Shown: piece by piece, positions 33,408 through 64,000 of the stretch
Layout of the letters: every line of letters begins with the position of its first letter
How positions within the stretch are numbered: position 1 is the stretch's first letter
DNA from: Akebia trifoliata
Lineage: Eukaryota; Streptophyta; Magnoliopsida; Ranunculales; Lardizabalaceae
Direction of reading: 5' to 3'
Length of the DNA: 64,000 nt
NCBI GenBank assembly: GCA_017979445.1
Contig: CM030706.1
Span: 8,356,967-8,420,966 of the forward strand
Notes under the pieces: generated by a model
What the model was told of the DNA's origin: nothing
Database searches by the model: none
What the model saw: the letters and a program-made list of their open reading frames with translations, nothing else
Translations under genes and position numbers: made by a program

Positions 33408-35716
33408 TCATTTTCCCTTCATAACTTCAATAAACATGTTGAAATTCTTGGTAGAAGACCCATCTTTACTAACACTCTTTCTTGCCATTTCCTTTATCTC
33501 TAAAGCTCTTCCTCTTATCTTCTCATCACCAAGCAAATCTTTAACATTTTTATTAATTTCTTCCTTTGGGATAATTCCATTCTCTTTTGGGTTCAACTTT
33601 AATCCAACCTTCCAAACATCAGAAATGAAATTTTGGATATGGAATTGGTCTGCAAAGTAAGGCCAACAAAGGAATGGAACTCCCATGCTTAATCCTTCCA
33701 TAGTTGAATTCCAACCACAATGAGTCAAAAAACAAGCAATGGAAGGATGGCTCAGTACCTGTTGTTGTGGGGCCCATCCCACCATTTGTCCACGTGAACC
33801 TACTCTTTCTTGAAAACAATTTGGGTATGTTGCGGTCGGACCATCAGTGAGATCCGGCCGCACGACCCACAAGAAAGGTTGACAAGTAAGCTCGAGCCCC
33901 AGTGCCAACTCATGGAATTGGCGCTGATTAAAGACAGTGAAGCTTCCGAAAGCTACATAGATGACAGAACAAGGAGCTTGTTTATCAAGCCAGTGTAGGC
34001 ATGTTGAGTCTTCGGGCCAAAAATTTCCATGAATTCGGTATGGGTGGCTACTTGCAAGTAATGGGCCGATTGGGAGGAAGTTGGGATACAATTGGAAAGC
34101 TGGTTGTTCAATATCGTAGAATGAGTTGCATAGAACCCAATCAACATCTCTAACTGCTTCAGTGTATGCGAATATGTATCGAAACATGGTTTGCTGTACC
34201 ATTGGGTCACCAATGCAACTCCATACAAAATGGGCCGTGTTCATGGGAGGCATGGTAGGTGATAGGTGGATCATTTGGTGATTTATGGGAGTACCTGCAT
34301 GATGTAAATTTGATGAATCACTTATGTCCTATTGCTATTGGACTTAATCAAGGAGTATGACATCATTCTTTTATAAAATCTTTGAAAATGACTAATTTAA
34401 ATTTAAATTCTTGGCATGTTGTTGGAATCTATTTTATATTTAAATAGACATGGTACAAGACAAAATCATAAATCTAGATTTAATGATTTGATCCTTTAAA
34501 TCTAGATTTGATTTGATATACATGTCCTATGTGAAGTACCCATGTCATTATGTATAGTTGGAAAAAAGAAGATAGATTCTATTGGCACACCAATTTTTAC
34601 TTAAGACAAATCAATCCGTTTTGAACCAACTAGTGTTAGAAGTAGTGGTCAGGGTTTCCCTCCAAAAGACAGAGGTCTTGAGTTCAAGTCCCTTAGTTGG
34701 CTACTAATAGGGATTTATCCCGACTTACCTAATATGTGTGATTTATAGGGTATTGCATGTACGCGGGTATTAGGGTGAGATATGCTACTTTAAGAGGTCA
34801 ATTGGCTCACTTCATACTACTAATTGGGCATATTAAGACTTAAAATAAGATGAATTTTATCCAAAATTCAAGTGATCTGAATATTAATTTAGCAGATTTG
34901 GTTCCTTTAAGTATATCCAAATTAAAACATGGGTCGGATATGGGTTGATGACCCTTAATTAGAGTCGGATCTAGGTCGGATACGGATATATCTTACTTTG
35001 CAAGTTATATTTTCATATTTTTCAAGATATTTTTCATCAACCAATAATAATTGGCCGGCATACGGTCCGGACATCCCGTCACAAAAATAGACAAAAAGAA
35101 AAAAGAAAAAAGAAAAAAGAAAAAAAAAAAAGTAATTTGAAATTAAATGCCTGTATATATATAGATTCATGTGTTATAAGTAAAAGTTGGTGTGTTACTA
35201 GAAGCTCTAAAAATTGCAATAATTCTTACCATTTGTATCAATTATTCCCTCTTCAATCAGCTTTGGAATGTGTAGGTTCAAGACTCTTGACGCTGCCGCA
35301 GCAGGCCAGAAGGCTGCACAACGGATTCCCATCTTCTTGGCAACTTTTACCGCCCAACCCATGATTTCATCAACAATGATGCACGTGATCTTATCATCGT
35401 CGGATTCATTCATCTTTTCTATCAATTCCTCGAGATAACGTGGCATGTATCTCAAGATAGAATCAGATAAGTTCCCCAGTTGATTTCGGTCTTCTTCAGG
35501 TCCCATTCCATCAGGGATTGAGATTAGATGGATCTGATTCTGTTTGATGTAGTTCTCCTCCCCACCTAAGGAGGAGATGACACGTGTGTGATTGAACTCT
35601 GTGTTAACGAAGGTGATCTTGAACCCATGTTCGGCTAAGCGGTGTGATAACTCCAGGAGGGGTATTACATGGCCTTGAGCTGGATATGATATAACCAGAG
35701 CGTGTGGTTTGCCCAT
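33408..35716 (-). CDS. UDP-glycosyltransferase, UGT83A-type (family 1)
   Basis: A cytosolic GT1 enzyme that transfers a sugar from a UDP-sugar to small acceptors. Two exons (35230-35716 and 33408-34294) with GT-AG borders join to 457 aa. The N-terminus MGKPHALVISYPAQGH carries the catalytic His16, and Asp116 (CIIVDEIMGWA) is its likely partner. The 44-residue PSPG box spans residues 336-379, from WAPQQQVLSHP through HCGWNSTMEG to ADQ. The final Gln is typical of UDP-glucose users. No signal peptide or membrane segment is present. The intron position and overall sequence match UGT83A1 of Arabidopsis (464 aa), whose acceptors are hydroxy-aromatic compounds. The acceptor here cannot be read from sequence. 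A TATA box lies at 35780-35787. A disabled copy lies downstream at 21881-24700. Confidence 0.93.
34631..34793 (+). mobile_element. tRNA-derived SINE in the UGT intron
   Basis: The order is TAGAAGTAGTGGTCAGGG (A-box-like), then GAGTTCAAGTCC at 34680-34691 (B-box-like), then GGGATTTATCCCGACTTACC and a GGGTATTGCATGTACGCGGG-type body. This is the architecture of widespread plant SINEs. It is sense with respect to the plus strand and opposite to the UGT gene. The ends are approximate. Confidence 0.6.
35092..35132. repeat. (A5-6G)n simple repeat
   Basis: AAAAAGAAAAAAGAAAAAAG and a poly-A stretch in the UGT intron, about 100 bases from the exon 1 donor. On the transcribed strand it is a T/C-rich tract. 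Confidence 0.85.
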
Positions 35717-35779
35717 GTTTTCTTGTTTCTATAACTCGTCCATCCACAACCACAGCCACAGCCACAACCACAACCAATT

Positions 35780-42983: not shown

Positions 42984-43490
42984 TATTAGAATTTTAATCA
43001 AAATTACTTGCTTATTTTGGATTTTCTTTGAATTAAAATATCCTTTTATGGTCCAATTAAATACTGATTTTGAAAGGGATTGAATTGCTATTGGCTAAGA
43101 ACATTGGGGACCAAGTTGGAAATAATTTTTGCAATCTAAGAAATTTCCATCGATTGGGGATCTTGTGGTTTCCTAAATAAATCAGAATTCTTTTCTTCCT
43201 AGAGTTTCTTCTAATTTTGGTGATGGGTTGGAATTGGAAAGAAAAACTCATTAAAGAGGGAAGTGGTGGCCGTCACTTAATGTGTATGATCGCAAGAGAA
43301 TCCCATCCATTTCGTCATACAAAATTAAAGGGTAAAGCACCATTATCTTAACTTGAAGAACACCAGAGCCTGATATTGGATTTCATTCTTGCTGATTTGT
43401 TGTTCAAGCTTCGCAAAAGGTACGCGACTTAAACCCATTCAGATTTCAAATCATTTTGATTAAGTGTTAGAGAGAAGATCCTATCCAACA
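42984..43490 (+). repeat. 5' LTR of the large copia element
   Basis: Runs from TATTAGAATTTTAATC to GATCCTATCCAACA. Pairs with 53313-53820. Confidence 0.93.
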
Positions 43491-43493
43491 AAT

Positions 43494-43505
43494 TGGTATC
43501 AGAGC
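43494..43505 (+). promoter_or_regulatory. Primer-binding site, initiator Met-tRNA
   Basis: TGGTATCAGAGC, three bases after the 5' LTR of the large copia element. Confidence 0.9.
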
Positions 43506-44769
43506 TTGGTTGTATCTCTTGCACTTAATTATTTGGTTCAGTTTTTTAACATAAAAGATCGATTGTAGTTTGCCATTAAAAGGTTCTAAGAAACCCCCTT
43601 TTTGATTTTATTTTTTATTTTGTAAATCCAAGGGGATTTTCGGTTTTGCACTCCATTGAAGTCGGAGATGACATCGTCCATGGATTTCCATCTTGATGGC
43701 TGAATGTTGAACCCACAATGACTTCTTATGGAGTCAACTTCATCTTCTTCTTAAAAGTTACAGTAAGGTATTTTGGAGAAGATGAAGTTTTATTTTAGAC
43801 TTTGGTCAAATCTGATTGACCATATGATTTGTTTGTTTCTTTTAAAAAATCATTCACTTGAGGTATAGGGTCGGACTCGACCCATGGGTTAGGCCACATA
43901 CCGACTTGACCCGCTGACCCGTTTGACCTCGGTCACATTATTCTGACTCAACATATTAGCTGAGTTGACTCAGTTGTGTTGATTATCTCATTTATGTCAC
44001 TATTCACAACATGTATTATATTCATGTTAAATGTTTGTTTGTTCAAATACATGATAATTGATTTTTGATTCAATTTTTTTTTCTGATTTTTCCCAAGGGA
44101 CTATTTGTTTAAAGAATGCATTAATTTATATTAAGGGATCGTTTGATAAAACATCATAGAATCTATTTATTTATTTTGATTCATATAAAATACTTATTTA
44201 TACCTGTAGACACCCCATTTTTGCATCTGCCTAATTCGACAATTCGTGACCCCGATTACCGTAAATTCCTAATGATGATCGCAAAGAACTCAAAGGCTTG
44301 TGAGTACTGTCCCTGATTCCCTTCGTTTCCACTCTTTTCATCTCCCCCACTCGTTGCGACTCGACATAGAAATTTACGCACGCTTAGGATCGCCATACGT
44401 CACACCCGATTTAGCAAGTACACACGCTTAGGCTCGCCACACAGTTCGATAACCTAGAGACCTCGCCACGCTAGGAAAATACGACTTTGAAACATAGAAA
44501 TAATCACATTGGGACTAAAAGAAACCTCACGTCAGAATTCGTAAAAATCCGCAAAAATCGACAAAATGACGAAAATACCCCTCATAAATTTTGGACCTTC
44601 GAAAGACCTTGAAAGTGCCTCCATTGCACTCAGAACATGATTTCGAGTCTAACGGGACCCAAATTGATGAAAACAGATAAACTTAGAAAAAATCATTAAA
44701 ATGACCGAAATGCCCCTCAACCTTCAAATTCAACTTAGAGATTCCGATCCTTAGGAAAATGTAACAAGA

Positions 44770-45240
44770 ATCAAACCTAATTAAAAGTTCAATTTAAACT
44801 AAAAAAAAAAAAAATTCAAGTAAAAAAAAAAAAAATAAACAATTCAAATAAAACAATTCCAAACAATTCAAACTCAAATTTAAAATTGAACAATTAAAAC
44901 TTAAAATTTAATTCAAAATTAAACAATTAAAACCTAATTCAAAATTAAACAATTAAAACTTAAAATTTAATTCAAAATTAAATAATTAAAATTTAATTCA
45001 AAATTAAAAATTAAACAATCAAAATCTAATTCAAAACCCAAACAATCGAATAATTAAAAATCAAACAATCCAACAATTAAACAATAAAAATCAAAGAATC
45101 CAACAATTAAACAATTAAAATTTAATCATTAAACAAATAAAACTTAAATTAAAAATTAAACTATTAAACAATTAAAATTAAATAACTAAACATTTCAAAT
45201 TAAAATCGAACAACTAATCAAATCAAAATCAAAACACAAC
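44770..45240. repeat. A/T-rich tandem-like tract
   Basis: Irregular repeats built from AACAATTAAAACTTAAAATT and TAATTCAAAATTAAAC units plus poly-A runs, with almost no G. Part of the presumed U3 of the 44215-48102 unit. It could be expanded by slippage. Confidence 0.8.
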
Positions 45241-45496
45241 CAACAAATCGAAGCAAAATTAAATCAACCAAAATAAAAATCCCATCGACAAAGTCAAAGC
45301 AAACCAATCAAATAAAAAAATAACAAAATTTTTTTCCAATCAAACATTAAAAAATCTAATGGATTATAGGAGAACCACCGTGCTACGAGTAGCGTGGAAT
45401 CCCCACCTACATTCTCCTAAAAAAAATGAGCCAAAGAAGAGAAAAACGTGTGAAACTATAAAAAAGAAGAAACAAAATTTTTAGGAAGTTGTCTCC

Positions 45497-45504
45497 TATA
45501 AATA
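45497..45504 (+). promoter_or_regulatory. TATA box of the 3.9-kb LTR
   Basis: TATAAATA in a CTCCTATAAATAGAGAG context, about 1.28 kb from the LTR start. It probably drives transcription from about 45530. Confidence 0.65.
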
Positions 45505-48500
45505 GAGAGTGACGTCTCTCTCTAGGAAGAAGGAAAGAGGGTAAAACCGTATGAGAAGAAAAATAAAAAAAGAAGAAGAAGAAATTAGAAAGGTTTTGGG
45601 TATAAAAAAAAAAGAGAAGGACGTCTCCTTCTGGTGGCTGAAAGAAAGGGTCTTCTTCTTCGGTCCTCCTCTCTTTGGCGATCATCTTCTCCGTGGGCTG
45701 AACAACGGGACACCTGCAACTCATCATCTTCACCTCTCTCTCACGTTTTACTAACCTCCCTACCCTCTTCTTCTTCATCTATCCACTGCAACCCAGCCCT
45801 CACTACAAAAAACGTGGCTGCTGCAGCCACTTCTTTCAGCCCTCTTCTCTCAGACCATCTTCTTCTCCAACGTTCTTTGGTCTCCCTCTCTGCCTGCAAC
45901 TGCTCTCCCCAGCCCTCATTCACGTTCTACCCTTCAATAGCCCATTCGTCTTCATCTTCTTTGGCTGAACCTACCACGTAGCCCACTGCTACAGCACTCA
46001 TAACGCCCAGCCTCTGTTCTACTCGTGGCTGCCATACCAGCGCCCCCAGCCATTCATCCTGTGCTCTACAGCACTCATAACTCTCAGCCCTCCTCTCTCT
46101 CTATTGGTGGCTGTACCAATACCCAGCCATTAATCTTATATTCCATAGCACCCCCAACACTCTGCAACGTCTTCTTTGCTGGTTGCTGTACCAGCACTCT
46201 TCCACAACCATCTTCAACACCCTCTCAACCTCTAAAACGACATCTCCTTCAGCTTGCACTATCTCCAACGTCCGTTGCTACCCCATCTCTATTACAAGTA
46301 CCCACAGCACCCTCTCTCCAGCATTCCTCCTTTCCATCATAACAGCCGCGACAAGGACTCACAAGCCTTCGCTTGTACCTGAAGGAATTAAGCCACTATT
46401 CTCGGACTAATAGGTGAGTTTTTTGTTATTTTATATTTATCTATTTGTATATTTTTTGTATATATGTATTCTTCGTTTTTTTTACGTTACTATTCATATA
46501 TATCTTTTCCTTTTTTTTCTCTTCTTTATGTTTTTATTTATTTTCATATTTTCATCAATAGGATTAGGAAGATATTTATTTTATGTATTTTTAGGTTTTT
46601 TTTTATATTTTTTATATAGGTAGGATTATGAAGGTATTTTTTTTTATATATCAATAGGGTTCGTCGAATACTCATTGTGTATATTTTCTTAGTTTTTATT
46701 TTTACTTTTTGTATTATTTTTTATAGGTTAGGAAAATATTTTTAGGTCTCATCTTGCTTATTTTACTTGTTAGTCTTTATTTTATTTTATTTTTATGTTC
46801 GCATGTTAATAGGATTAGAAGATTATTTTTAGTTATTTATTTATTTTTGCATCTTTTTATGAATTTGTGGTGACATAATCCTTGTATTTGAGCATGATGG
46901 TTCTATATGTTTTCTACGATGAATTTGTGATAAAGACTCTTCCACGTGATGATATATTTTTGCATGACGAGTATGTAAGTCGTTGAATGATAATTATCGC
47001 TGAAAAATTGGGAGGCATATCGTTGCATGATAGTTGCTTTGAAAAAATTGAAGGTCATGTATGCTTGCCCATTTGGGTCGATTTAAGAGTCATTCGAAAT
47101 TGAAAATTTTGTATACATTGGTGTTTGTCAATCTCTAATTTGGTAAGCATGACGATGTGGAACTTTTCCTTGCTATTTTGTTGATTTCCAATTTGGTAAT
47201 TTGTTACAAATTCACAATTTTCTAATTCGGAAACTCTTATTCATGGTTTTGTTTGGAAAATTCATATTTGGAAACCTTCTAATAGGAGGTTGCATAATTT
47301 TCTATTTTGGGAAAGACACATACTTGTAAATTTCCATTTTAGGAATTTCACATTTTATCAATTTCCTAATTTAGAAGATTCTGCATCCTTATATTTAGAA
47401 GGTTCACATTCATGGAAAGTTGGGAATTTCTAATTCGGAAGTTTACATTTTCGAAACTTTTTATTTTGAAAAATGTATCTGTTGAAATTTCTAATTTGGG
47501 AATTTATCATATATCTCTTGAATTCTGATTTAGGAAATTTTATGTTCCTAATTTGGAAATGTTTTAAGTCCCAATTTGACAGGTTTCTATTTGTGATCTT
47601 CCTATTTAGAATATTCTCATGATTTTCTATTTTGGATCGTTTAAGGAATACTTGCAGGTGGAGTTTCTTAATTTATTTCAGGTCATTGAGCTAATTAGGA
47701 TTTTTTCAAACCCTTCCATATTTTGTGAAATTCGAAGAAGGACCATGTGATGATTGGGATAATTTTTTGCCATAGGATTTGGTTGGAAAGCCCAACATAA
47801 ATTGATGATGATGATTGGACTGTGACCTCGACTGTAATCTTTGTATGTTGACCATAGGATGTTTTTGGATTGTAGTAAAGACCGATTGTATTGATCGGGC
47901 GGGTTCGGTGCCTAACACCTTCCGAAACCCGTAATCTGACCCCTTACCCATATCTTTGATCCGTGGATCGATCCATATCCATTTGGAGTTATTTATGGTT
48001 CCTAGACCTAAACTAGGTGGCGACTCCCTTCTTTTAAGGTCCCCAATTTAATAAATTAGACCCCTATCCACTATTGAGTGAAAACGGGTCGAGGCGATTT
48101 CAATACCCTTGGATTATAATTGAAGTCCGTTTGAATCCCATGAGTAGTTGATTCGAAGATCTTTTTGAAACCCATTGTTCTAAATGTGTTTCAAACTCAT
48201 TAGAACATAATTAGTTGTTGATTTTCCTGAAATAACTAGAATTATGTGTTTTGGTATATATACTTACATTTTTTATTATCAATGAACTAAGTGTTAATAA
48301 TTGAAGAAAAAACCTTAAGAAATATTGAATGTAGGTAAATACGCCATATCTTTAAAGTATCAAGAACCTAAACACGTGTCTAGTCCAAACTGGTTGTTAG
48401 GTCTAACCTATAGGGGTTTGGGAAGATCGGTAAAGTGGTTGTTCGAGGGTTCATTGCTGAAGTAGAATCGCGTTCTGCCTAAAGGTGTTCGACTTACAAA

Positions 48501-48699
48501 AGTTATGTTTTCTTTGAATTTTGGGATTCAATTCTCATTAAAACCTCAAATTAACAGTGATTTGCATAAGACTACTAATTCTGCCAAAAGGTGATTTAGG
48601 TTAGTTTTGTGTAACTCGAGTGAATAGAATAGTCACACGTGTAATAGGGAAATAAAGATAACCCTCTTGCCTAAAGGTAGTGGAAGTGTCTAAGTCAAA

Positions 48700-49295
48700 C
48701 TTAAACATAAGTGAAAGCACATTATGTAAAGTGGGAAAAGGCCAACAGGATGGCCATGATGATTATACGTGCATCCATTTCAGAACCTCTATGTGGGGGT
48801 ATTGAAGTCACTAAGATAGCTCGAGAGTTATTGGTTGTCATCTAGAAACAGTTCGTTGCCAACAAGATGTCCCTACAATACAGTTATTTTGCCAGATTGA
48901 TGGCCTTGAAGTATGATGGTTCTGAAAGTGTTAGGGAGCACATATTGAGGATGTCACATCTGGCAATTAACCTTCGAGAAACTGGTATTAATTTTGATGA
49001 TGCTATGCTAGTGCATATGGTAGTTCTGTCACTACCTAAGTCTTTTGAGACATTTAGGGTGAACTACAATGCACAAGAGGCCAAGTGGGATCTCCATCAG
49101 TTGACCACCTTGTGTGTGACAGAGGAGGAGCGTCTTAAGGGATCTAGAGCAGAGTCAGCTCATCTAGCTATATCTTCTGAAAGCAAGAGGCCCTTCAAGA
49201 AAAGAGTTTTCAAGAAGGGAGGAAAGAAGGATTAGAATTCAGGAAGCAAAGAAAAGTTTGAGAAAGCATCAGGAAAAATGTCTGGGAAAGTTGAG
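48700..49295 (+). pseudogene. Copia gag of the large element
   Basis: The reading runs from KAHYVKWEKANRM (about 48716), through an in-frame stop before KQFVANKMSLQYSYFARL, to 48867-49235, which has the UBN2 gag pattern (REHILRMSHLAINLRETGIN, VLSLPKSFETFRVNYNAQEA). A TAG after GGKKD separates it from the zinc knuckle frame. The N-terminus is not recognisable, so it is truncated or has diverged. Confidence 0.82.
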
Positions 49296-50945
49296 AACGT
49301 AGATTGTTGGTTTTGCAAGAAACAAGGCCATGTGAAGAAGGATTGCTACAAATATAAGGAATGGATAAAGAAGAACAAAGGTATTAATATGAGTTTAGTA
49401 TGTTTTGAATCTAATCTGATAGATGTTCCAGTAAATTCTTGGTGGATTGACTTAGGTGCATCTGTGCACATCACCCATTCTTTGCAGGGGTTCAACAGTC
49501 GGAGAAACCCCAGACTCGAGGATAGGTTGTTCTTTGGGAACTCAGAGGCGTTGGAGGTCGAAGCCATTGGAACTTGCAGCTTGATTTTGGATTCTGGTTT
49601 CAATTTGATTTTAGAGGATGTTTTTTATATACCAACATTTAGACGAAACTTAATTTTTATTTCTAGACTTGATGCTTGCGATTTTGGATTTTTGTTTAAG
49701 AATGCTAGCTTATCTATTTATTCTAGTATGGATATTATTGGTCCTGGTGTTTTGCTGAATGGATTATAACAGATATCATTAGATAGTTCTTTTGCTTCAT
49801 CTCTAGTATGTGTTTCTTCTGGTTCTTCTATGTTCAAGCGTTCACGTTCAATAGAGAATTCTTCCATGTTGTGGCATAAAAGGTTGAGTCATATCTCAAG
49901 AAGAAGGTTAGATCTGTTGGTCAAAGAAGGCATTCTTCCCTCCCTGGATTTTTCAGATTTTTCCACATGTGTGGATTGCATTAAGGGTAAAATGCCCAAG
50001 AAGAGAAAGTTCGAGGCCACCAGAGCCTTTGGGCTGTTAGATCTAATTCATACAGACATTTGTGTGTTTCCTACCCTTGCTCGTGATGGTCAACGGTACT
50101 TCATCAGCTTTATAGATGATTTCTCTAGATATGCGTATGTTTATTTGATTCATCATAAATCAGAAGCTCTAGATGTTTTCAAGGTATATCAATTAGAAGT
50201 TGAGAAACAATTGGATCAAAAAATCAAAGCAGTTCGATCAGATAGAGGAGGAGAGTATTATGGAAAGATGGATCAAGACGGTATCAATCATGGACCATTC
50301 GCAGAGTATTTGAAAGAACATGGGATCGTTCCTCAATACACTACTCCAAGAACACCAGAACAGAACGGTGTTGCCGAACGAAGGAATCGCATCTATCTAG
50401 ATGCAGTTCGGAGCATGATGAGCCATTCAGATTTGTCGGAGTCCTTCTGGGGTGAAGCATTGAAATTTGCAATATATATTCTGAATCGAGTTCTGTGTAA
50501 AGTTGTACCAGAAACTCCGTTCAAGATTTGGACTGGAAGGAAGCCTTCACTTCATCATATCCATGTTTGGGGATGTCCTGCAGAGGCTAAGTTGTATAAT
50601 CCAGAGATCAAGAAACTTGACCCTAGGACCACTTCATGTATCTTCATTGGTTATCCTGAGAGATCCAAAGGCTCCAGGTTTTACTGTCCATCTAGACCAA
50701 TGGAGATTGTCGAAACCAGCCATGCCAAGTTCCTTGAGGATGTCCAGAACAGTGGGAGTTTGAAACATCATAAAAGTATTTTTCCTAAGTCTAAGAAGAG
50801 TACTCCTTTATTTACTCTACCTGTGGGTTTTCCTATATCTTCAAACTCTACTTTTCCTCCTCATAGAGTTGAAGATGAGAGCACTGCACTTCAGGATACA
50901 GTTCATCCACTAGTTGTTCCCATTACAGAACCAGTTCATTCATAG
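49278..50945 (+). pseudogene. Copia zinc knuckle, protease and integrase
   Basis: Frame 49278-49769 holds the zinc knuckle CWFCKKQGHVKKDC and the protease active-site region WWIDLGASVHIT, where the usual Asp-Ser-Gly reads Asp-Leu-Gly. After a stop, 49830-50945 holds the integrase: zinc site (MLWHKRLSHISRRRLDLL, CVDCIKGKM), the core with DLIHTDICVF, SDRGGEYYG and [13 protein letters not shown] (the Asp-Asp-Glu triad), and the linker (PSLHHIHVWGCPAEAKLYNP). Integrase is nearly intact over 371 codons. Confidence 0.9.
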
Positions 50946-52652
50946 GCAACCTCTCATATTTCAGAACCTATCCCTTTGCGGAGATCCTCTAGAGAGCGCA
51001 AGTCCGTAATTGCAGCTGATTATGAAGTATATTTATAAGAAGATGAATTGAGAAATCTAGATATGGATGATCCCTTGTCATTTGCAGAAGCCGTGAAAAG
51101 CAATGAATCTCAATACTGGCAAGAGGCCACGAGGGAAGAGTTGCAATCTATGAAAAGAAATCATGTATGGGAACTGGCAGTTCTTCCAAAGAATCGTAAA
51201 GTTATTGACTGAAAGTGGGTTTTCAAGACAAAGAGAGACTCAGAAGGAAAGGTTGAAAGATTCAAGGCAAGGTTAGTTGCAAAAGGTTTTAAGCAAAAAC
51301 CAGATATTGATTTCTCAGAGACTTTCTCTCCCATATCATCTAAGGATTCTCTGAGAATTATTCTGGCCATAGTCACCCATTATGATCTAGAACTACATCA
51401 GATGAATGTAAAGACAGCTTTCCTTAATGGTGACCTTGAGGAGGACATCTATATGGCTCAGCCTGACGGATTTGCAATCCAAGGCAAGGAGCACATGGTG
51501 TGTAGTTTGAAGAAATCCATATATGGACTAAAGCAAGCCTCTAGACAGTGGTATCTAAAATTTGATCAAGTTGTTACCAGGCATGGATTCAAAGAAAATG
51601 TGGTGGATAAATGCATTTACCTCAAGGTCAGTGGGAGCAGATTTGTGATTCTTGTTCTTTATGTGGACGATATCCTACTTGCCTGCAACGATATTCACCT
51701 ACTTCATGATACGAAACATTTTCTTTCATCGAATTTTGACATGAAGAACATGAGGAATGCTGAGTATGTCCTAGGGATCAAAATTCATAGAGATCATTCT
51801 ACTGGGTTACTGGGTTTGTCTCAGAAAGCTTATGTTGAGAAAGTTCCCAAGAGATTTCACATCCAGTCTTGTGCACCTGGTGAGACCCCAATAGTCAAAG
51901 GTGACAATGTTAGTGAGAAACAGTGTCCCAAGAATCAAATCGAAAGAGATCAGGTGGATTCAAAAGTATATGCTTCAGCGGTTGGAAGTCTTATGTATGC
52001 AATGATTTGCATCTGACCGGATATCAATTATATTGTTGGCATGCTTGGCAGATATCAGAAAAATCCTAGGATCGATCATTGGAAAGCAGTGAAGAAAGTA
52101 TTCAGGTACCTAAAGAGGACAAAAGATTTTATGTTGGTTTTCAAGAGGTCAAGCGAGCTTAAAGTAGTTGGTTATTCAGACTCAGATTTTGCTGGATGTT
52201 CCGACACTCGGAAGTCCACTTCTGGATATATTTTTACACTCATTTGTGGGGTAATTTCTTGGAGAAGCTCTAAACAGTCAATTATTGCGGATTCCACCAT
52301 GTATGCTGAGTATATCAATTGTTATAAGGCTACTCAACATGCTATGTGGCTGAGGAACTTCATCATGGAATTAGGCATTGTGGATTCTATCCACAGGCCT
52401 TTGGTCATTTTTTGCGACAATGAAGCTGTGACCAAGTTTGTGAAGAACGAAAGAACTACTAAAAGCAACAAGCACATAGACATCAAGTATCGTCTAGTGT
52501 GTGAGAAAGTTCGAGAGGGCATTATTGAAGTACTACATGTGTCTACAGACCAAATGATTGTAGACCCTCTCACTAAAGGGCTCCCGCCTAAAGTATTCAA
52601 GGAGCATGTTTGTCGTATGGGAGTTTTGGAGTCTTTTGACTCTGTAGCCTAA
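50946..52652 (+). pseudogene. Copia reverse transcriptase-RNase H of the large element
   Basis: From a stop at the integrase end, pieces read DDPLSFAEAVKSNESQYWQE and WVFKTKRDSEGKVERFKARL. Frame 51402-52016 then has MNVKTAFLNGDLEEDIYMAQ, SLKKSIYGLKQASRQWY and LYVDDILLACND. A CGA to TGA change (52014-52016) stops it. Frame 52041-52652 carries RNase H (GYSDSDFAGCSDTRKSTSGY, then FCDNEAVTKF and KHIDIKYRLVCEKV) to the natural pol end. The YVDD box and RNase H acidic residues are present. Confidence 0.9.
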
Positions 52653-53312
52653 ATGGTTTGTCTTGTCTTTATTGATGTTTTATTTGAGACTATTATTGTC
52701 AGTTCAGTTATTAATAATAAAATTTTATTTAGTGCTCCTCACTAATGACATTATTGTTGAACCATGGTATATATATATATACTTGTATCTTGTGGATTAT
52801 GTAATGAGGATAAACGGTTTGGCCTTGGAACACGGTTAAAGTGTTCATGAGGATAGCTTGGGCTAGATGCATTTGGGCAATGTATTGTTAAAGCCTTCTT
52901 TCTGATAGGGTGGTGATGGTTTTCACATGGCGGTTGCTGTAACATATCAGAGTGACACATTCAATATGCGAAGCTTGACGAATTTAGAGAATGTACATAA
53001 GTGATTGTATGAGGAGTGTACATTATCTCTCGATACTCTACAAAACTACTATGATGATAAACTCTCAATTCCTTGATAATCCTATCTTGTGACCATGGAA
53101 TTGTCTTGGTGCCAACTCTAAGGAGCGCCAAAACATTCATGATCCACTATTGGCATTGTCGTTGAAATTGGGTGAAAGTTAAAGTGGTAACCAATTGTCT
53201 TAGCCAAAGATTTTCTAAAACTAAGAGTGGCCACTCGATCTTGAAGTAAAAACTTTTCAATCCCCAAGTATTTTCCACAAAACAAAATTATTTATTGGAC
53301 TAAGTAAGAGAT

Positions 53313-53820
53313 TGTTAGAATTTTAATCAAAACTACTTGTTTATTTTGGGTTTTCTTTGAATTAAAATATCCTTTTGTGGTCCAATTAAATATTGATTTT
53401 TTAAAGGGATTGAATTGCTATTGGCTAAGAACATTGGGGACCAAGTTGCAAATAATTTTTGCAATCTAAGAAATTTCCATCGATTGGGGATCTTGTGGTT
53501 TCATAAATAAATCAGAATTCTTTTCTTCATAGAGTTTCTTCTAATTTTGGTGATGGGTTGGAATTGGAAAGAAAAACTCATTAAAGAGGGAAGTGGTGGC
53601 CGTCCCCTAATGTATATGATCGCAAGAGAATCCCATCCATTTCGTCATACAAAATTAAAGGGTAGAGCACCATCGTCTTAACTTGAAGAACACCAAAGCC
53701 TGATATTGGATTTCATTCTTGCTGATTTGTTGTTCAAGCTTCGCAAAAGGTATGTGACTTAAACCCATTCAGATTTCAAATCATTTTGATTAAGTGTTAG
53801 AGAGAAGATCCTATCCAACA
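53313..53820 (+). repeat. 3' LTR of the large copia element
   Basis: Starts TGTTAGAATTTTAATC after a weak purine tract (AAGTAAGAG) and ends ATCCTATCCAACA, followed by the GTTTC duplication at 53821-53825. Confidence 0.93.
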
Positions 53821-54640: not shown

Positions 54641-55441
54641 AAAAGAAGGAAAAAAAATCGCCAGAGCTCTTAGCTTTTTAGCTTCTTCTTTGGGCTTGAG
54701 AGTTGGTAGCTTCTATTTTGGATACACACTCATGTTTTGTCTTGGGCTAGGAACCCTCTATGGATACATCCTTGCTGCCTCCCTTTCTATTGTGGGATGG
54801 TTGGAGATTGATTGTGGCTCCATACCCTCCCTAGTTTCTCTTCTTTCTCAAGATTCTAGAGGTCTACTCTCCCTATGGTTGTAGCTAGTCTGGGTTTGCC
54901 TTAACCCTATTGACCTTTAAAAAGAATCATTCTACACCACATAAGAGAAAGTGGACACAAATCAATCTATTTGAAGTCTATTTCAAATTCATCTGATAGA
55001 TATTTTTATTGCAATTTAGTTGGTCAAATATCATACTAGTGAAAATTAAGTCCATAGATTCAAAGCGTATTGGCAACTCAAAAAAGTAATTTTGGCGAGT
55101 ATTTTGCATAATCCTTTTTCAAGTAAGAGAACACTTGTTTTATTATTGATAATAATCCTCCTATTTGCTGAAAATACATATTGTAATCCATGAATTGCTT
55201 TCTCTTGATGTATTGGCATCCTTAACATTATTTACTACGGAATTTTAGTAACCACATAATGTATATAATGGAAGTTTCTTGACTAAATTAGATTCCGTGT
55301 TTTTCTTTTCACATTAAGATGTGTTTGATTGCATGGAAAATCAAAATCCATGAAAAAATGACTAGGATAGAAAACATGAATCTATTTTTTAATATTACTT
55401 TGGAAAAATAAGAGGGAAAAAAAAGAAAAAAGAAAAGAAGA
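54641..55441. other. Intergenic DNA between the LINE and the gene-fragment region
   Basis: No gene is supported. A 64-codon plus-strand frame at 54690-54884 (LMFCLGLGTLYGYILAASLS) is hydrophobic and matches nothing I know. The rest is AT-rich, ending in an A/G-rich stretch. Confidence 0.35.
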
Positions 55442-56082
55442 CACTACAAAAAAAGACACGATTAAAATGCCCTAAAATAGAATCCTTTACCAGCGTTTTA
55501 TAGAAAAACGCCCCTAAACCCACCCATCTTTTTGCTTTTTCTCTCTAAATATATTAGACGGTTTTCTATCTAAATATATTGGACGGAATCTTAATGGCGT
55601 TTTCTCAAAATTGCCGCAAAATACAAGAGCTTGGAGGGGCTCTTCAAAAAATTGCCTGAAATTTCAGATTTTTGTGGCGTTTTTTGTGACGATTCTTAAA
55701 ACCGTCAAAATAGGGGATGAAGATAGGGTTTCGAAGCGTTATGATTGGATATCAATGGGTGGCTGTTCCGTTGAAATCGCCTTTGAAGATGGAGATGGAA
55801 CTAGCTAGTGAACCTAGCTGATACGAGTTTTGTGGCGAAAATCCATGGCAATGTTGCCCTAAATCGAGGTGTTCCAAAGAAATTTCTTCAAATACGCCAT
55901 TAAAGAGATGAAGAATTGAGGCATTTTTGTTGTTGAACCCATCTATAATTGATCAACAAATTTCGCCTCTTCACGTTCTTCAATTTGACGGTATTTTTTT
56001 TTATTTCTTTACTCCTCTCTCCCTCTCTCCCATTCCCACTATATATATTCGTTCCATTCCCCAACCATCCCACTCTATTTCG

Positions 56083-58020
56083 ATTTCTCAAGGTTGAAAA
56101 AGAATAAGAAGAAGAAGAAAGTAATTTTTAGTAAACGCCTAATCTTTCAAATGTTGGAAACAAGTCAGTGTGAAATTTTAAGAAGGAATTTGTGTTTTAT
56201 TTTTAATTTTTTTTCTCTGTATCAATTGGTTTTGAATGATTTATTTATTTTTAATGTTTAAAATACAATGCTAATTCGAATGTTAATTTATTTTTTTGTC
56301 AAAAAATTTGACTTACAGCATTTGGTCGATCCCTAAGAACCAAATCACCTAAACTTTTGTTCTACTGCTCTCTATCTCGATTTTTCAAGTTTGAAGAAGA
56401 AGAAGAAGAAAAGAGGATTTTAAGAAGGTAATTTGTTTTGATCAATTGGTTTTGAATGATCTAATTATTTATTTATTTATTTTTATCTTTAGGATACAAT
56501 GTTGATTCGAATGTTTTAAATGTGCCAAATAAAATGTTAAAAGCATTTGTTGAATTAAAAACATGATCCGATGCCACGGGTTGTAGAGTACGAAATTCTA
56601 AGAATTTTGATAAACAAAAGAAAAAAAAGTTAATTTTCATCTATAAATTTTAATTTTAAGTCTTGGAAACTCGGTAGGCATCCATTTTCAAAACCTTGGA
56701 TTTAGTTGAAAATAAATTATTTTTGACTTTTTATTTGTCTAGATTAAATTTTTTTTTATGAAACTTGATGGCTATGGTGTAGGATTTCTGATTTTATTTT
56801 TATGGATTACTAATAATTAAATTTCTCCATTAAAAAATCTCCTATTTAGACTTGTTTGAGTGGGTTTGGACATACTTTCTACTGAAAGGTATAAATTCCA
56901 GATTGCTGAATTTTCCCTAAACTGACTTTGTAAACAAAATTGGAGGTGTTTCCGTTAGAAACTCCATTGAAGAAGGAAGAAACGAGATCTTTTGGAGGCG
57001 TTTCCGATGGCCATTTTATGAACCGCCATTAGAAACCCCAAATCGAGGCTCCACCATTACAAAGATGAAGAATCGAGACGTCTTCAATATGGCGCCTTCG
57101 CAGTCTCCAATTTGACGGTAATTTTTTCGTTTCCTCTTCTCCTCCCTCCCTCTCTTCCACTCCTACACTATATCTCCATCCCATTCTTTAACGAACCCAT
57201 TCTCTAACAATTTTCAAGGTTGAAGAAGAAGAAAAATGAGAAAAAGAAAAAGAAAAAGAAGAAGAAATGATGGTTTTTGTTCAAAACCCAAATCTATTGA
57301 GAGTTGGAATAGGTAATTTTTATTTTTTTTCCCTTTTCTCTGTATCAATTGGTTTTGAATGATTTTTTATTTTTATTTATCATTAGGGAACAACGCTGAT
57401 TCAAATTTATTTTCAGAAAATTTGATTTATAGAATTTTGTTGATCCGAGAGAACCAAATTTCAATCTCTAACTATTTCTCAAGGTTGAAGAAGAAGAACA
57501 AGAAGAAAGGAGGGTTTTTGTTCAAAATCCAAATATGTCGAGAGTTGGAACAGGTAATTTTTATTTTCTTCTGACATTTTCTAATTTTTGTTTTGTTTTG
57601 TTTTATTTTTTTCTGACTTTTTCTCCATATCAATTGGTTTTGAATGATTTTTTATTTTTATTTATCATTAGGGTACAATGCTGATTCGAATTTATTATTT
57701 TTCAGAAAATTTGATCTACAGTATTTTGTTGAACCAAATCTCCTAAACTTTCGTTGTATTGCTCGCTCTCTATATATCATGTAAGTAGTCACCCCCCTCT
57801 TCTCAAACCCTTTCTTGTTCTATTTTTCATTTTTATTTTTTTTATATAATTATTTTTATTTGCTTCTGTTTGATCGTCTATATTGAAAATGTATGAATTT
57901 TTGAGTTCTGATTTTCCCTTTTCGTGTTGTTCTTGGCATAATTTGAGTTCTGATTTACAGTATTTTGTTGAACTAAACCTCCTAAACTTTCGTTGTATAG
58001 CTCGCTCTCTATGTATCATG
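56083..58020 (+). repeat. Diverged repeats of about 270 bp
   Basis: A composite unit occurs at about 56090-56330, 56380-56520, 57215-57440 and 57480-57740, with a partial copy at 57950-58020. Its parts, in order, are CTCAAGGTTGAAGAAGAAGA, GGTAATTTTTATTTT, ATCAATTGGTTTTGAATGAT, TAGGGTACAATGCTGATTCG and ATCTACAGTATTTTGTTGAA. A 40-base block around CTAAACTTTCGTTGTATTGC and CATGTAAGTAGTC is repeated at 57740 and 57980. No coding function is seen; the units may be leader or intron-like segments multiplied within the element. Confidence 0.8.
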
Positions 58021-58684
58021 TAAGTAGTCCCTTTTCCTTCTTTGCACAGCTTCTTTGCTTCTTAGTATGAGTAATGATAGGACTAACAAGACCACCACAA
58101 GTAAGCCAAAGTTTGAGGGAGATCCATAAGACTTGGTTCTGATCTGGGTTGGGATCAGGCATTGGAGTGTTGTGCTTTCTAGTGTTAGAGTAAATTACCT
58201 ATGATACGTAGGTTTTAACTTGAAAACAGGGCTTTAATTTGAGTCATTAGGATTCTTCAGAATGCATTAGTAATTTGGTCTATTTGATTGATTTTATTGG
58301 GTTAATTTGATATGAAGATGCGTGCCTTAAACATTGGATTTGTAGCTCTAGATGGGATTGAATGTTATAAGAAATTTTGAAAAATGATGATGATTATGGT
58401 TAACTTGAATGTAGAAAAATTTATTGCTTATTTAATTGTAGAATTATTTTAATTGCTTAATTCAATTAAATGTTGTGCCAACAGAGTTATTATGAAGTTT
58501 TTGTTTCATTCTCCCTGAAATAGGATTGACTGGTGACATAGCGTTCATGTTGTTGCCGCCTATAGTTGGGATAAGGTTTTGTGAAAATAATGATGATTGT
58601 GGTTATAACTTGAATGTAATTATACGTATTGCTTCTTTTTGTTGGAATTATTATTCTTGTATTAACGACGAAAAAAAAATTCAG

Positions 58685-60061
58685 GTGAAGAAGGTAACTG
58701 TTGACATTGTTTGGGACTTAACAAGTTCTAAGGATGGCTTGCTATTACTTGCCCGCTACCCGGAGATTTTGTTACCTTCACTGTCCCGTCTCTTAGGAGA
58801 AAATAAGGTGTGTTTTAAACTTTTGAAAAATATTTATTTTTATCATCTTGAGAGGAATCTAATTGACATCATGAAACATAACATTCTGAATGGAATATGA
58901 ACAAGTATGTGGAAGAACGCCACAAACTTGTAAAATATAAAACTAATGAGTTAAACTAAGTCACCATAATTGAGCCATATTGGGCAATGAAAACTTGTTC
59001 TAACTTGACATTTGGGCTTGTATTTTTAGCATAATATTGTTTTTGATATAGCCACACCATGTGATTCTATGAGGTTCATGCCCATCAACAAGAATGGCTC
59101 AACTACCATATCACCTCTAGAGCATGCCAAGCTCTCCCCACCCAAACCATAATTTTTGTGGATTGAATGAGCTCAACCATCCAATCTAGTCGTACTTATG
59201 GATGGTTCCATGATTAATGGAAGAAAGACCAAAATTTGGGCTGATTGGATCCACTATTGTAGATTAAACTCATTTAATTGACCTTTTAGGAGGTTTCAGA
59301 ACCTGCAGCTGAAGCTCTTGTAAATCTTTCACAAAATTCAGAACTATCAGCAAAGATGGTCGCCCTTGGAATAATTAAAACAGCCATGGAGATGCTATAT
59401 AAGAAGGACTCTAGCATTACCCGGTTGTTGGTTATGCTCCTAGTTAATCTAACACAATTGGATGCAGGCATCACTTCCCTACTTCAGGTATTGCCTTTGA
59501 TATAAGAGAAGCTTGGGATTGAGTATGCTTTTGTTCTATCATTAGTAGGGTTGTTCTCATTCTGATTAGGAATAGTTTGGATTGTGATTTTTCATTCTAT
59601 AGAATGGAGATGAGAAGATGCAAGGATTGTATGTTATAAAGCTTGTGAGATCATTTTGGGATTGAGTATGCTTTTGTTCTATCATTGGTAGGGTTGTTCC
59701 TTGTCCCTAGTGGACTTTGTCATATTATATTGGTATGGTATGATAGCACAAAAGTTATTATCGTGGATTTGGTAAAGCAAGCCAGCCAGGCTAGTCATAG
59801 AAAGCAAGGGTGGTTGAATGGGATCAGACTATATATGATTCATTTTCCCTTGTTTCATTCAAACAATATTCTTCCTACATTTAATGCGTCCATTGTGATT
59901 TCTCTTGATCTCTGGTGAGTTGTGCTCGGATTTACAGTGAGCAGGACACATTGAAAATGCTACTTGAGCTTGGAAGTGCACTCTCAATCAAACGGGAAGC
60001 CGTAAATGATCCAGAAATTCGTGTCCAAGTGTTAGAAGCTATTTACTTGATTTCATTGCAG
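58685..60061 (+). pseudogene. HGH1: HGH1-like ARM-repeat protein, internally deleted fragment
   Basis: HGH1 proteins are cytosolic ARM-repeat chaperones that help fold elongation factor 2. Four exon pieces match: 58685-58807 (VKKVTVDIVWDLTSSKDGLL), 59290-59487 (SEPAAEALVNLSQNSELSAK, RLLVMLLVNLTQLDAGITSL), 59603-59654 (NGDEKMQGLYVIKLVRSF, cut off in mid-exon), and about 59925-60061 (SEQDTLKMLLELGSALSIKR, DPEIRVQVLEAIYLISLQ). Splice sites of the first two pieces are intact. The first exon, roughly 100 central codons and the C-terminal exons are missing. A direct repeat (about 59511-59556 and 59655-59700) lies at the deletion junction. It is not a working gene. Confidence 0.88.
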
Positions 60062-61167
60062 GTCAAATTAGTAGCATTAACACTAACCGTAATTGTTATT
60101 TTACACTTAGATGTAATATGTTGTTAAATCCATGACAACAATTTTATCTTTGGATTAAAAAATGACTCATCTATTTCTTTTTTTCAAGTAACAATATTCT
60201 ATTATCTTAATAAGAGAGAATTATGATATTTTGCTTTGTTACAGAAGTATCACACCGGCCTCACTTCCCTTATACATAGATACGAGTCTTTTATTTTGTC
60301 TGCATATGTGTACTCATTCTTGGCCCCCATACAATGAATTTGCTGGCATTGTTTAAGGAGATTCAAGATGGATCACCCTGATCAAATGAAAATCAAAGCA
60401 ACACGACACATGGTGAAACAATTTTATCTTTTCTCTAGTCTCTTTTCTTTATTTTGGAAAAATAGGATTACTGTATTGTTGTTGTTATCATCATCCTACT
60501 AAAAGACAGGTTTAGAGGCACACACATAGACTAGGTTGCAGCCCACTTTATTTTTGCACACTTTCGGAAAAACACATACCCAATGTGTCTCCCTTCACAA
60601 TGGGTGGTTGGCCTTTAAATGGGCATAATAACAAAATCAAGCGGAGTGCTTTGTTAGAGACTTGTTACCTAGACAATTAATGGCTCAACATGAGCTTAAA
60701 TCTGTACACACTAGGAGATGCGCTTATGGCTACAACTACTCAATCATTCTGCCTTTCCCAAGTATGCACACTAGCAGTATTTCATATGCCCATCACATTA
60801 GGTGACACATCCAACACTTGTGCTTGCTCACTAAGTGTTTACCATGCGAAGGCTAAGTTCTCGATGATATTCATCTTAAACTGATTCAATTAGAGTTTCG
60901 ATGTGATTTTGAAGGATTCCAAGGGATTGGTATTGATTATATTTCTTGAGCATTTACGTAACAATTGTTAAAATTTTCTAATTACTCATCTCGCTTGAGT
61001 GGCAAAGAGTAATGATTTTCATGTTGTTGTAATTAAGACTGGAATATCAAATCATCCATCTTTAAAATTTCCTCAAATTTATGATTATGCATTTTTCTAC
61101 TTCTCTTATTTACTATGATGACACTTGTATGTTCTCTTCTTTGCCTATATGGTCTGCTCTTGCCCAG

Positions 61168-61259
61168 GTCATTTGATGGAAAAGATAGAAGCTGAAAATT
61201 TGCTACACAAAGCGTTTAGTGTTTTTCTGTTCAACCCCAAATACGAGTTGCTTCTTTAG
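61168..61259 (+). pseudogene. IDI: Isopentenyl-diphosphate delta-isomerase exon fragment
   Basis: A single exon reads HLMEKIEAENLLHKAFSVFL and FNPKYELLL, then TAG, the start of the Nudix-type core of IDI. IDI interconverts IPP and DMAPP in isoprenoid synthesis. Acceptor (CCCAG) and donor (GTATGT) are kept. The last codon is TAG (61257-61259) where the family has Gln (LLLQQRS), a CAG to TAG change. The next exon with the catalytic Cys (TNTCCSHP) was not found. Isolated fragment, no product expected. Confidence 0.88.
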
Positions 61260-62087
61260 GTATGTTAGTACTTACATCAATTTCTCTTTGGAATGTTTTG
61301 ATACTTGGAAATGAGGTTGTGTTACACTTAATCATCCAATTAGTGAATAGGGAAATGAGGTTCTGTTAAACTTTTTGAAGGTCCAAGGCCCTGATAATTC
61401 CTCTCAAACCATTTATGAGTCATGGATTGGTTCAAGTGATTTCCCCATAGTAAGTAGTATTTAAAAGTGCGACTACATTTGAGTGATTTAAGTAAAACTG
61501 TAATTCACTCATAGTTACAAAAAATGGTCTTTTCCCCCTGAAAAAGTTGGGTCTAAAATAAGTTTTTTGTCTCTTGCAATTAAAATGAGCTTTTAGGATT
61601 TAGTGATTCATTAATGTAGTTTAGTGTGGATTTACTAAGACTGTCTTGATATTATGGTTGTTAATTTTTCAATTGTGTGTTATTTTGTTCGAAAGATAGT
61701 TGATTATAATTTTTGATTAAATGAAAGATTGTCATTAGTTCATAGAAAAATCATTGTGGTCTAGACCTTCACACTTATTTTGATTAAATGTTTAGTTGAT
61801 TCAACGTATGTTGCATGTAAAAGAAAGATAAACCATTTATGTCTATTGGAAGCTAACTGAGAATGGTTGTGTGAAGTATACTTATGTTAGGAGGCTACTC
61901 TGTCTTCAGTTATTGCTAGTTCTGTACCTTTGTTCTTATGGTGTTGGTCACATCATGTTTCCATTCTATCGGTCTGCATTGCATAAATCTTTGGATCACC
62001 TTGATTATAAATCTAAAGTAAAACTAGTAATTAATTGTGCTCCTATCCATGTTTCGATATATTCTAAATCTACTAGATTGTTTATTA

Positions 62088-62808
62088 GAACAATTGGTGA
62101 AAAGCTTATTGGACTAGTGACTTCAAGAGATGAGATTCTTGATCTGCTTAAGGTGGGTAATGTCATCAAGGAATTCAGGAATGTGTGCTTGGAATTATTC
62201 ATAACACATTGATGTTTAACTCAATATATGTTTTGCTCCAGCTTGATGATGTGATAGATCTTGTGATTCCAAGAGGCAGTAACAAACTTGTTTCGCAAAT
62301 CAAGGAATCAACAAAAATTCCCGTTCTTGGTCATTTTGGTAAGCTAAAATATGTTCGGAATTCTATTTATCATTATGTTGTCTGCACAAGCTTCGATTTT
62401 GTTATATGATACATTTTCTATGAGAGTTATAATTTGTAATGTCTACTGTGTAGATGGTATTTGCCATGTTTATGTTGATAAGTTAGCTAACATTGATATG
62501 GCCAAACGCATTGTTTTGGATGCAAAGATAGACTATCCTGCCGCCTGTAATGCAATGGTAATTCCTTTATACATTCTTTTTACTGATATGTTAGATGATA
62601 TTGTGATGAACAGGATTTTACATATTGCAGATCTGGCTTTTTATTTATGACTAATATATGCTATTAGTAATTACTCTCCACTTTTTGTGAGATAATAACA
62701 CTTGGTGTTGTTCACCTTGGTATTGTCAGGAAACACTTCTTGTACACAAAGATTTGGTGAAGATTGGCGGGCTTAATGAGCCCATTGTAGGTCTCCGCAG
62801 TGAATTGG
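62088..62808 (+). pseudogene. P5CS: P5CS (gamma-glutamyl phosphate reductase domain) gene fragment
   Basis: P5CS makes glutamate semialdehyde for proline synthesis. Four exons of its C-terminal reductase domain are present with introns: about 62088-62152 (GEKLIGLVTSRDEILDLLK), 62242-62338 ([20 protein letters not shown]), 62454-62557 ([20 protein letters not shown], then DYPAACNAM with the catalytic Cys) and 62730-62808 (ETLLVHKDLVKIGGLNEPIV). All junctions are GT-AG and in phase. The 5' glutamate kinase exons and the 3' exons were not found. The coding parts hold no stop, so it is younger or less decayed than its neighbours. It could be transcribed as part of a chimera. Confidence 0.9.
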
Positions 62809-63637
62809 GTATGGCTTCTGTATAAGCATGTTCACAATCCTCTATGTTTTAATCATATAAACTATTGGTTCAATAATTGCATCCCCTATTTGATCTTATT
62901 AAGGTTGAGACCATTGACACTTTCTTACTTTGAAGAAGAATTAGTTTAGAGTCTTCCATACTTATTCAGGTTGATATCATTAGCTTTTTCTCATTTTGAA
63001 GAAGATTTTGTTGAGTCCTACATAATTTTGTAAATGGTATAATCTGCTATTAAATGTCCAATAGGTACACAACCTATCAATATAGATCTACTGACATGTC
63101 ATCTTTTGGATGGACCATAGCATTTGAGTCACCATTTGGAGGTTTCTTATTGTTTGACAGAAGAACCATCTAGAATCAAGTGGTATCATCCCATTAACGT
63201 GATGTTGGTCCTTAGAAGAGTGGTTTTTCAATTGGATGCTTTTGATTTAACAATTTATGTAATGCTATGGTGCTTTGTGGAACCGTTCAAGTTTTTAAAC
63301 CCATCTTTATGATTTACACAGTCAATGAAAATAATTTTACATCTCTAGCATTCAAGTCTTAAGTGGTTCTGGTTTTGCAATTGACTAAGAACCACCTTAT
63401 TTTAATTAATTTAGACTTCTAGGTGAACATTCAAACTTGGATAAATGTAGTCTTCTGTAATCTTTCTAGGATGCAAAGATCCATTATTGTTGTGTGTTTA
63501 GTTTATCATTTTAATTATAAAGCTTTTCCAAAAGTTGGTTGAACTCCTTTCACCACCTACTCTTCAAGAAGCAACATAATTCAATTATTCTTTTATTTGT
63601 CGGTATTTATTATTTTGCACAATTTTTCCCTTTCTAG

Positions 63638-63764
63638 GTACCCAATTCCACCGTTCGATTTTTCTATTGAAGGAGTAACATTGATATCAGTTGATGTACA
63701 TAAGTATGGGTTGCCTCCAAAGGGAACTAGTATAGTTCTATATAAGAATCACACCATTAGAAAG
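63638..63764 (+). pseudogene. Sphingosine-1-phosphate lyase exon fragment
   Basis: One exon reads [20 protein letters not shown] and [20 protein letters not shown], ending RK at a GTAGTG donor; the acceptor is TTTCTAG. This is the PLP-binding region of sphingosine-1-phosphate lyase, an ER enzyme (DPL1/SPL family). The Schiff-base Lys lies in VDVHKYG. The exon is open and carries no obvious damage. The next exon (usually starting HQFVAVTEWTGG) was not seen before the window ends, and upstream exons were not found between 62810 and 63637. More of the gene may lie beyond 64000. Confidence 0.88.
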
Positions 63765-64000
63765 GTAGTGTTGTCTATCGATCAATGTTTGAGATACTTA
63801 TTTTGTTTATAATTCATAGAGTTGCCTCTTATTTTATAGTGAAAATATTCGTGAATATGTACTTTGTTTTTGGATTTCGTAGATGTATGTTTGGTACATT
63901 GTAGTTTATGTAGCATAGACCTCCATACAATACATTTACAGGTTGTGGCATCTTTTTATAAACATGTGATAAGTGAAATGTGGGGTGCCAATAACAGTTC

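Follow-up and report, generated by a model that had tools for sequence, protein, structure and literature searches.

A very probable Pack-CACTA transposon of Akebia trifoliata with pieces of five host genes, probably gathered stepwise

The analyzed window is a stretch of 64,000 nucleotides from Akebia trifoliata and corresponds to C3:8356967-8420966 of the searched genome (652.5 Mb in 878 contigs, numbered here with the prefix C); the DNA following the window is denoted L009. The right part of the window enters a CACTA element of 9,091 bp (C3:8412408-8421498), bounded by CACTACAAAA at 55442 and by TTTTGTAGTG, with pieces of host genes between these ends. A preliminary description of the locus, based on its letters and open reading frames, reported plus-strand fragments of four genes: HGH1, IDI, P5CS, and SPL, the gene for sphingosine-1-phosphate lyase. 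All four are confirmed within 58685-63764 (5,080 bp), and wherever an exon edge is intact, the splice sites are AG/GT. Four donors proved to be an undercount, because 61371-62107 is derived from a fifth gene; by its sequence matches, the cargo comprises five genes and about seven sources.

The captured HGH1 piece occupies 58284-60322 on the plus strand, with exons at 58685-58807, 59290-59487, 59603-59656 (cut), and approximately 59915-60061 (start cut). Matches to proteins cover 58682-58807, 59290-59487, 59594/59606-59656, and 59915-60061, and Pfam matches are weak and under the curated cut-offs, the best one being DUF383 (E 0.00047). Its donor is C9:25410058-25413935. The HGH1 gene itself (C9:25410426-25414114) shows seven stretches in order, with no stops, matching residues 8-322 of a 336-residue relative; judged by these frames, the gene is near-complete, the first and last residues being unmatched. 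The captured piece comprises four exon pieces that have been rearranged, with breaks at 59501, 59656-59699, and 59829: after DNA of C9:25410058-25411519, 44 bp of intron 3 appear once more, and two forward jumps follow. About 85 bp are missing at 59501 in the window and kept in the other six loci compared.

The IDI piece (61130-61277, plus strand) contains a single exon, 61168-61259, with its intron edges and matches the donor, C8:36145397-36145250, at 93%. This exon is recognized by TIGR02150 (E 4.7e-5) and by proteins from PDB (E 1e-4), with no match in Pfam. Contig C8 carries, in order, exons that we take to be those of the IDI gene, judging by eye against plant IDI. The fifth gene encodes glutamate carboxypeptidase 2 (AMP1-like), represented on the plus strand at 61371-62107 by exon 61381-61449 and intron DNA that are collinear with C12:2205072-2206523. 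The C12 frames around and after the collinear stretch match glutamate carboxypeptidases III and II (PDB, E 4.6e-16 and 7.5e-13) and the TFR_dimer domain; the exon itself is presumably AMP1-like, given the C12 collinearity and the plant AMP1 sequence. The stretch 61371-62107 does not belong to P5CS. Three smaller plus-strand pieces complete this part of the element: an unannotated piece at 60313-60428, 91-92% like three C11 loci; another one at 60419-61101, 92% and 80% like C6:27588269-27587323, where only reading frames are listed; and an 84-bp repeat at 61272-61355, between IDI and the carboxypeptidase, for which eight matches in the genome are listed, including one next to the C3:25426 mosaic described below and none in C12.

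The P5CS piece (62090-62817, plus strand) has exons 62090-62152, 62242-62338, 62454-62557, and 62730-62808, which together match P5CS chains in PDB (E 1.5e-51) and TIGR01092 (E 7.3e-58), and nothing in Pfam. It is followed on the same strand by the SPL-bearing segment 62818-63774, of which 62818-63405 has no assigned source. The SPL exon (63638-63764) has sphingosine-1-phosphate lyase as its best PDB match (E 7e-12) and no match in Pfam, and in NCBIfam only other decarboxylases were matched, with 5.7e-6 at best. The locus C3:25441258, the best other P5CS locus observed, was considered as a P5CS parent and rejected, since no next P5CS exon was seen by eye among the following frames; it looks like another mosaic. 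The region C3:25426251-25448600 is probably such a mosaic, with the carboxypeptidase and P5CS joined as in the window and P5CS 42 bp longer. Further exon-like frames follow P5CS there; some frames of C3:25441258 may resemble an alkenal reductase, although Pfam found nothing in them.

The element ends agree with the initial proposal of a CACTA-type terminus, with motif-rich subterminal DNA, upstream of the gene pieces and a right end past 64000 accompanied by AGA. The left terminus CACTACAAAAAAA starts at 55442 and is preceded by AGA (55439-55441). The right terminus TTTTGTAGTG, one T fewer than predicted, was found at L009:523-532, 532 bp beyond 64000, with AGA directly after it (L009:533-535, or C3:8421499-8421501). 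TTTTGTAGTG is the complement of CACTACAAAA, so that the two form an inverted terminal repeat typical of CACTA. The GGCG/CGCC motif occurs 12 times in 55442-57120, where stretches of this length have 1.8 on average, and 14 times in the 500-bp bin at 64001, at the right end; short subterminal repeats in both orientations, as in CACTA elements, are found at both ends, the motifs differing somewhat between them. Genome-wide, CACTACAAAAAAA has 435 occurrences versus 133 for the reversed control. Matching 3-bp flanks, the duplication size of CACTA, were observed in four of the five elements with both ends read: AGA in the window, AAA at C3:35981034-35989674, TAG at C10:21891905-21901481, and CCA at C15:9670086-9676883.

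Taken alone, the left terminus is not significant: with at most one mismatch, CACTACAAAAA occurs three times in the window versus 3.17 expected, a second CACTACAAAAA being located at 45801. GGCGTTTT occurs three times in 64 kb, all within 55505-55683, and 8 of 100 shuffles reach three; the AGA duplication is weak by itself in its GAA-rich flanks. Since chance would yield the left motif about as often and GAA abounds in the flanks, the case for an element is carried by the two ends together, by the density of GGCG/CGCC at each of them, and by the sister elements. No right end lies inside the window. Between the two ends we found no additional CACTACAAAA or TTGTAGTG, other insertion boundaries of individual fragments not having been searched for. 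Rfam gave no match in the window.

Genome comparison separates the cargo from the transposon backbone. The left part of the element (55442-58284, plus strand) includes the CACTACAAAA terminus, GGCG/AAACGCC motifs, and duplicated exon-like modules; by motif counts and the genome search it is backbone, which the comparison shows at least from 56939, as 56939-58285 is common to elements without HGH1. Among 29 matches to 58030-60100, nine belonging to other loci stop precisely at 58285, and five to HGH1, including the gene, begin precisely at 58284. On the opposite side, at least 14 of the 42 listed matches to 63031-64000 begin exactly at 63775, eleven bases past the SPL exon. Counts from this search are lower bounds, scores having been computed for 40 of 136 candidates. 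Thus, the cargo spans 58284 to 63774. The right backbone, recognized by the same search, starts at 63775 on the plus strand, fills the window to 64000, and runs on to the terminal TTTTGTAGTG. It contains an exon-like stretch from 63942 (VVASFYKHV...), which was rejected as an additional host gene, with no PDB match and no protein candidate; its position inside backbone common to at least 14 other matches makes it a probable exon of the transposon itself. In the left backbone, 55959-58029 contains a module that is TATA-like, GAA-rich, and exon-like and has been duplicated directly and in nested fashion (69% to 94% identity), with GTAAGT closing two of the copies.

A further copy of the gene set, anticipated in the preliminary description, exists at C3:35981034-35989674, on the contig of the window and at a distance of 27.6 Mb. 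It contains the same five genes, has its own AAA duplication, and is 97.5% identical to the window element over 4,311 aligned bases, matching 58782-60127 and 61033-64532, with a 1.7-kb insertion in HGH1. The idea that one CACTA transposon collected the pieces is thus supported by both ends, the target duplication, and the second copy. Host gene DNA lies between CACTA ends while donors reside elsewhere (HGH1 in C9, IDI in C8, the carboxypeptidase in C12), and the AAA-flanked copy indicates mobility; that the element belongs to Pack-CACTA is, in our view, close to certain. Very probably, it is a non-autonomous Pack-CACTA transposon of the CACTA (En/Spm) superfamily, 9,091 bp long, whose interior was filled stepwise by five host gene pieces and small unannotated pieces.

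Other origins of the block were weighed against these data. Filler DNA at repaired breaks can also hold small pieces from several chromosomes, which would suit a random accumulation of pseudogene fragments and filler that CACTA did not move; the same five genes inside a second bounded CACTA element largely refute such an origin, which is highly improbable. Collection by a Helitron is a most improbable scenario as well, although the identified gene pieces all lie on one strand and maize Helitrons acquire several gene pieces in sequential steps, as suggested here (PMC3288121). Maize Helitrons differ in having TC...CTRR ends with a hairpin and in inserting between A and T (PMC3288121), whereas this block is bounded by CACTA ends and a 3-bp duplication, as are the sister elements with other duplications; a CTRR hairpin was not searched for.

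Several observations weigh against the assignment to a stepwise-filled CACTA element. The two five-gene copies differ in the left end, and the second one lacks 58284-58781 and 60128-61032; therefore, plain duplication of a single unit does not account for them. In the fifth element with both ends read, located in C1, the flanks AAT/AGA are unmatched, and the AGA duplication of the window element sits in a GAA-rich tract. The expectation that donor loci could be found held for HGH1, IDI, and the carboxypeptidase, but not for P5CS and SPL, whose parent genes were not located, no dedicated genome search having been made for P5CS. No transposase-sized frame was seen in 55442-64000, the longest listed stop-to-stop frame having 134 amino acids, in an element not scanned for domains and a genome in which no search for transposases was made, the latter also counting against the assignment. 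Given this longest frame, the element is considered non-autonomous. A frame with the Transpos_assoc domain (PF13963, E 1.2e-9) lies near C16:19956739, by an HGH1-bearing element, and is a possible CACTA transposase remnant or source.

Related copies suggest that cargo pieces were added in steps. The C1 element (C1:30553038-30555774, 2,737 bp) consists of the left backbone, the SPL exon, and the right end, without HGH1, IDI, and P5CS. The SPL exon is wholly spanned in at least 15 loci, including the window (10 matches cover the full query and five more span the exon), versus two loci where HGH1, IDI, and P5CS are found together, as are all four genes other than SPL. Hence SPL is likely the oldest capture in the CACTA family of the window. 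The order of capture would then be SPL first, followed by HGH1, IDI, the AMP1-like carboxypeptidase, and P5CS.

The junctions between pieces bear on how they were gained. At nine junctions examined by eye, exact shared tracts have lengths of 2, 5, 4, 3, 0, 3, 0, 7, and 5 bases, with a mean of 3.2 that is biased upward by choosing the longest shared run. In the random-join control on fetched DNA, the mean is 0.77, and none of 20,000 sets of nine reaches the observed sum. This excess, as measured on the sequences, favours template switching. Besides the bias, three features point in the opposite direction: two of the nine junctions lack any overlap and contain bases that are not assigned; four jumps inside HGH1, assessed by eye and outside the random-join test, share just 1-2 bases; and some of the nine junctions are jumps within one source.

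Another route is tandem insertion alone, in which two CACTA copies, inserted near each other at a gene and with complementary end deletions, form a hybrid that takes the intervening DNA, the process being repeated for each gene. It was proposed for Arabidopsis Pack-CACTA (PMC13317346) and fits the mixed left and right ends of the copies observed here. However, the HGH1, C11-like, C6-like, IDI, and carboxypeptidase pieces are derived from five contigs and, the 84-bp repeat aside, either overlap or are separated by at most 28 bp. CACTA ends could hardly be accommodated between them, so that this route is inadequate by itself. The HGH1 piece also holds a backward 44-bp copy and forward jumps within one gene. 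On balance, tandem insertion alone is unlikely. We slightly favour template switching as the principal way in which pieces were captured. Excision would leave breaks, and repair would copy from ectopic loci and other CACTA copies, switching at short shared sequences, while transposase supplied in trans would move the element.

Some of the cargo is present in a second CACTA family, called B here, with the ends CACTACAACATTTTT. It carries HGH1 in C10:21891905-21901481 and C15:9670086-9676883, and relatives with HGH1 in C16 and C14 have one CACTACAACATTTTT-type end each, that of C14 being a variant. The C10 element has a 1.4-kb insert with P5CS that is absent from C15, and the P5CS pieces of C10 and the window have the same 42-bp deletion. 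The HGH1 piece of the window starts 38 bp inside that of family B, and its rearranged part is common to C16. Thus, a readable series exists: the backbone with SPL, family B with HGH1, family B with HGH1 and P5CS, and the two five-gene copies. A tentative explanation, to which we give somewhat less than an even chance, is that host-gene cargo is exchanged, and ends are swapped, between the two CACTA families, whose termini differ. In this view, HGH1 would have been captured in B and passed to the family of the window (A), and the P5CS piece with the 42-bp deletion would have passed between A and C10, via microhomology-guided template switching in excision repair. The C10 element also has ankyrin, RRM, and RCC1 pieces, according to Pfam matches of its frames, and the C15 frames are similar.

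The captured HGH1 and IDI pieces were compared with their donors; P5CS was excluded from this argument, the copies in the window and at C3:25441258 both being mosaic pieces. Identity to the HGH1 donor is 95.8% in exons (499 bases) and 94.5% in non-coding DNA (1,495 bases), and for IDI it is 94.6% in the exon (92 bp) and 91.1% at the edges (56 bp). In HGH1, 49 differences are of the donor-C>T/G>A type versus 23 of the reverse, the direction being read without outgroup polarisation, and the pattern is consistent with methylated, unconstrained DNA. In both five-gene copies, TAG closes the IDI exon at the place of CAG in the donor gene. The similar divergence of coding and non-coding HGH1 DNA, together with this stop in IDI, gives no sign of a protein function. 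The HGH1 piece has changes in 4 of 58 strongly conserved columns, whereas 120 intact proteins (the same proteins that defined the columns) have 0.42 on average and 3 at most. Its overall protein identity is no outlier, 14 of the 120 intact proteins scoring lower, which counts against the main interpretation.

A new functional chimeric gene under selection nevertheless has points in its favour. The captured exons are open except IDI, and among 11 exons compared, all 10 acceptors and all 10 donors that are readable in both five-gene copies are AG and GT, respectively, with the cut HGH1 exon 4 excluded and two acceptors (HGH1 59938 and P5CS 62089) being cryptic. Such a gene would, however, be expected to show coding constraint, which neither the identity comparison nor the IDI stop in both copies reveals. 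The changed conserved columns of HGH1 also speak against it, as does the limit of 151 open residues in the spliced captured exons (carboxypeptidase exon excluded), and no chimeric protein was found among 120 listed of 4,888 matches (candidates with lengths between 0.55 and 1.75 times that of the query). We consider a functional chimera very unlikely. Since comparable splice sites are kept in both copies, chimeric RNA seems possible, as in the soybean element Tgm-Express1: transcription from the left part of the element could splice captured exons into chimeric, probably non-coding RNAs.

Other features of the window lie outside the element. Direct repeats of about 380 bp (91-96% identical), 42986-43367 and 53315-53697, surround Copia-type frames and do not start with TG; by eye, the region 42986-53697 lies inside an apparent split long interspersed nuclear element (LINE) on the minus strand. 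A UDP-glycosyltransferase (UGT) 83A1-like gene is located at 33408-35728, with a second fragment at 22049-22459, and its exon 33408-34328 is at best 66% identical to sequences of Macleaya and Tetracentron. Protein matches of the window point to a flowering plant, with none near identity among those listed. A UGT-like stretch was also seen by eye downstream of the element, on the minus strand (L009:4600-8000).

Multi-gene capture by CACTA is already established, and the window element adds one more case. Wheat chromosome 3B has 140 CACTA capture events (PMC4290129), and in maize Pack-CACTA reaches the greatest number of loci (PMC8903248). The locus had initially been considered a rich case; with five genes it is one, but it has a precedent in soybean Tgm-Express1, a CACTA element in which fragments of five unrelated host genes span 5.7 kb and are included by splicing, as additional exons, in transcripts of the host gene (PMC1947982). 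Both elements carry five host gene fragments with exons and introns retained. The Akebia element, known from DNA alone, differs in its plant and genes, its length of 9.1 kb, the second five-gene copy, the existence of cargo subsets, and cargo in a second CACTA family. Another similar system is the Tpn1 family of Ipomoea nil, non-autonomous En/Spm elements that keep their ends, have the interior replaced by host genic DNA, and are reported to yield chimeric transcripts (PMC5105172). The interior is likewise substituted between kept ends here, but cargo common to families with different ends is not described in the accessible parts of that report. Compared with Pack-CACTA of Arabidopsis and maize (PMC8903248), individual donors, rearrangements, and a likely acquisition order are readable here.

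Hence, the less usual features are the readable order and the cargo common to families with different ends. Cargo sharing of this kind was not found in the accessible parts of the literature, which is no proof of absence, and a literature search on this gene set gave no paper with three of the five terms. Gene-gathering by DNA transposons is still an open question, and an undiscovered mechanism may exist beside tandem insertion (2026 review, PMC13317346). Because the series of elements, the donor genes, and base-level junctions are available in one genome, the differing predictions of competing models of capture can be checked for each junction. If the proposed exchange between the two families is true, the cargo of these transposons would be built as a shared genome-wide pool rather than separately in each element.

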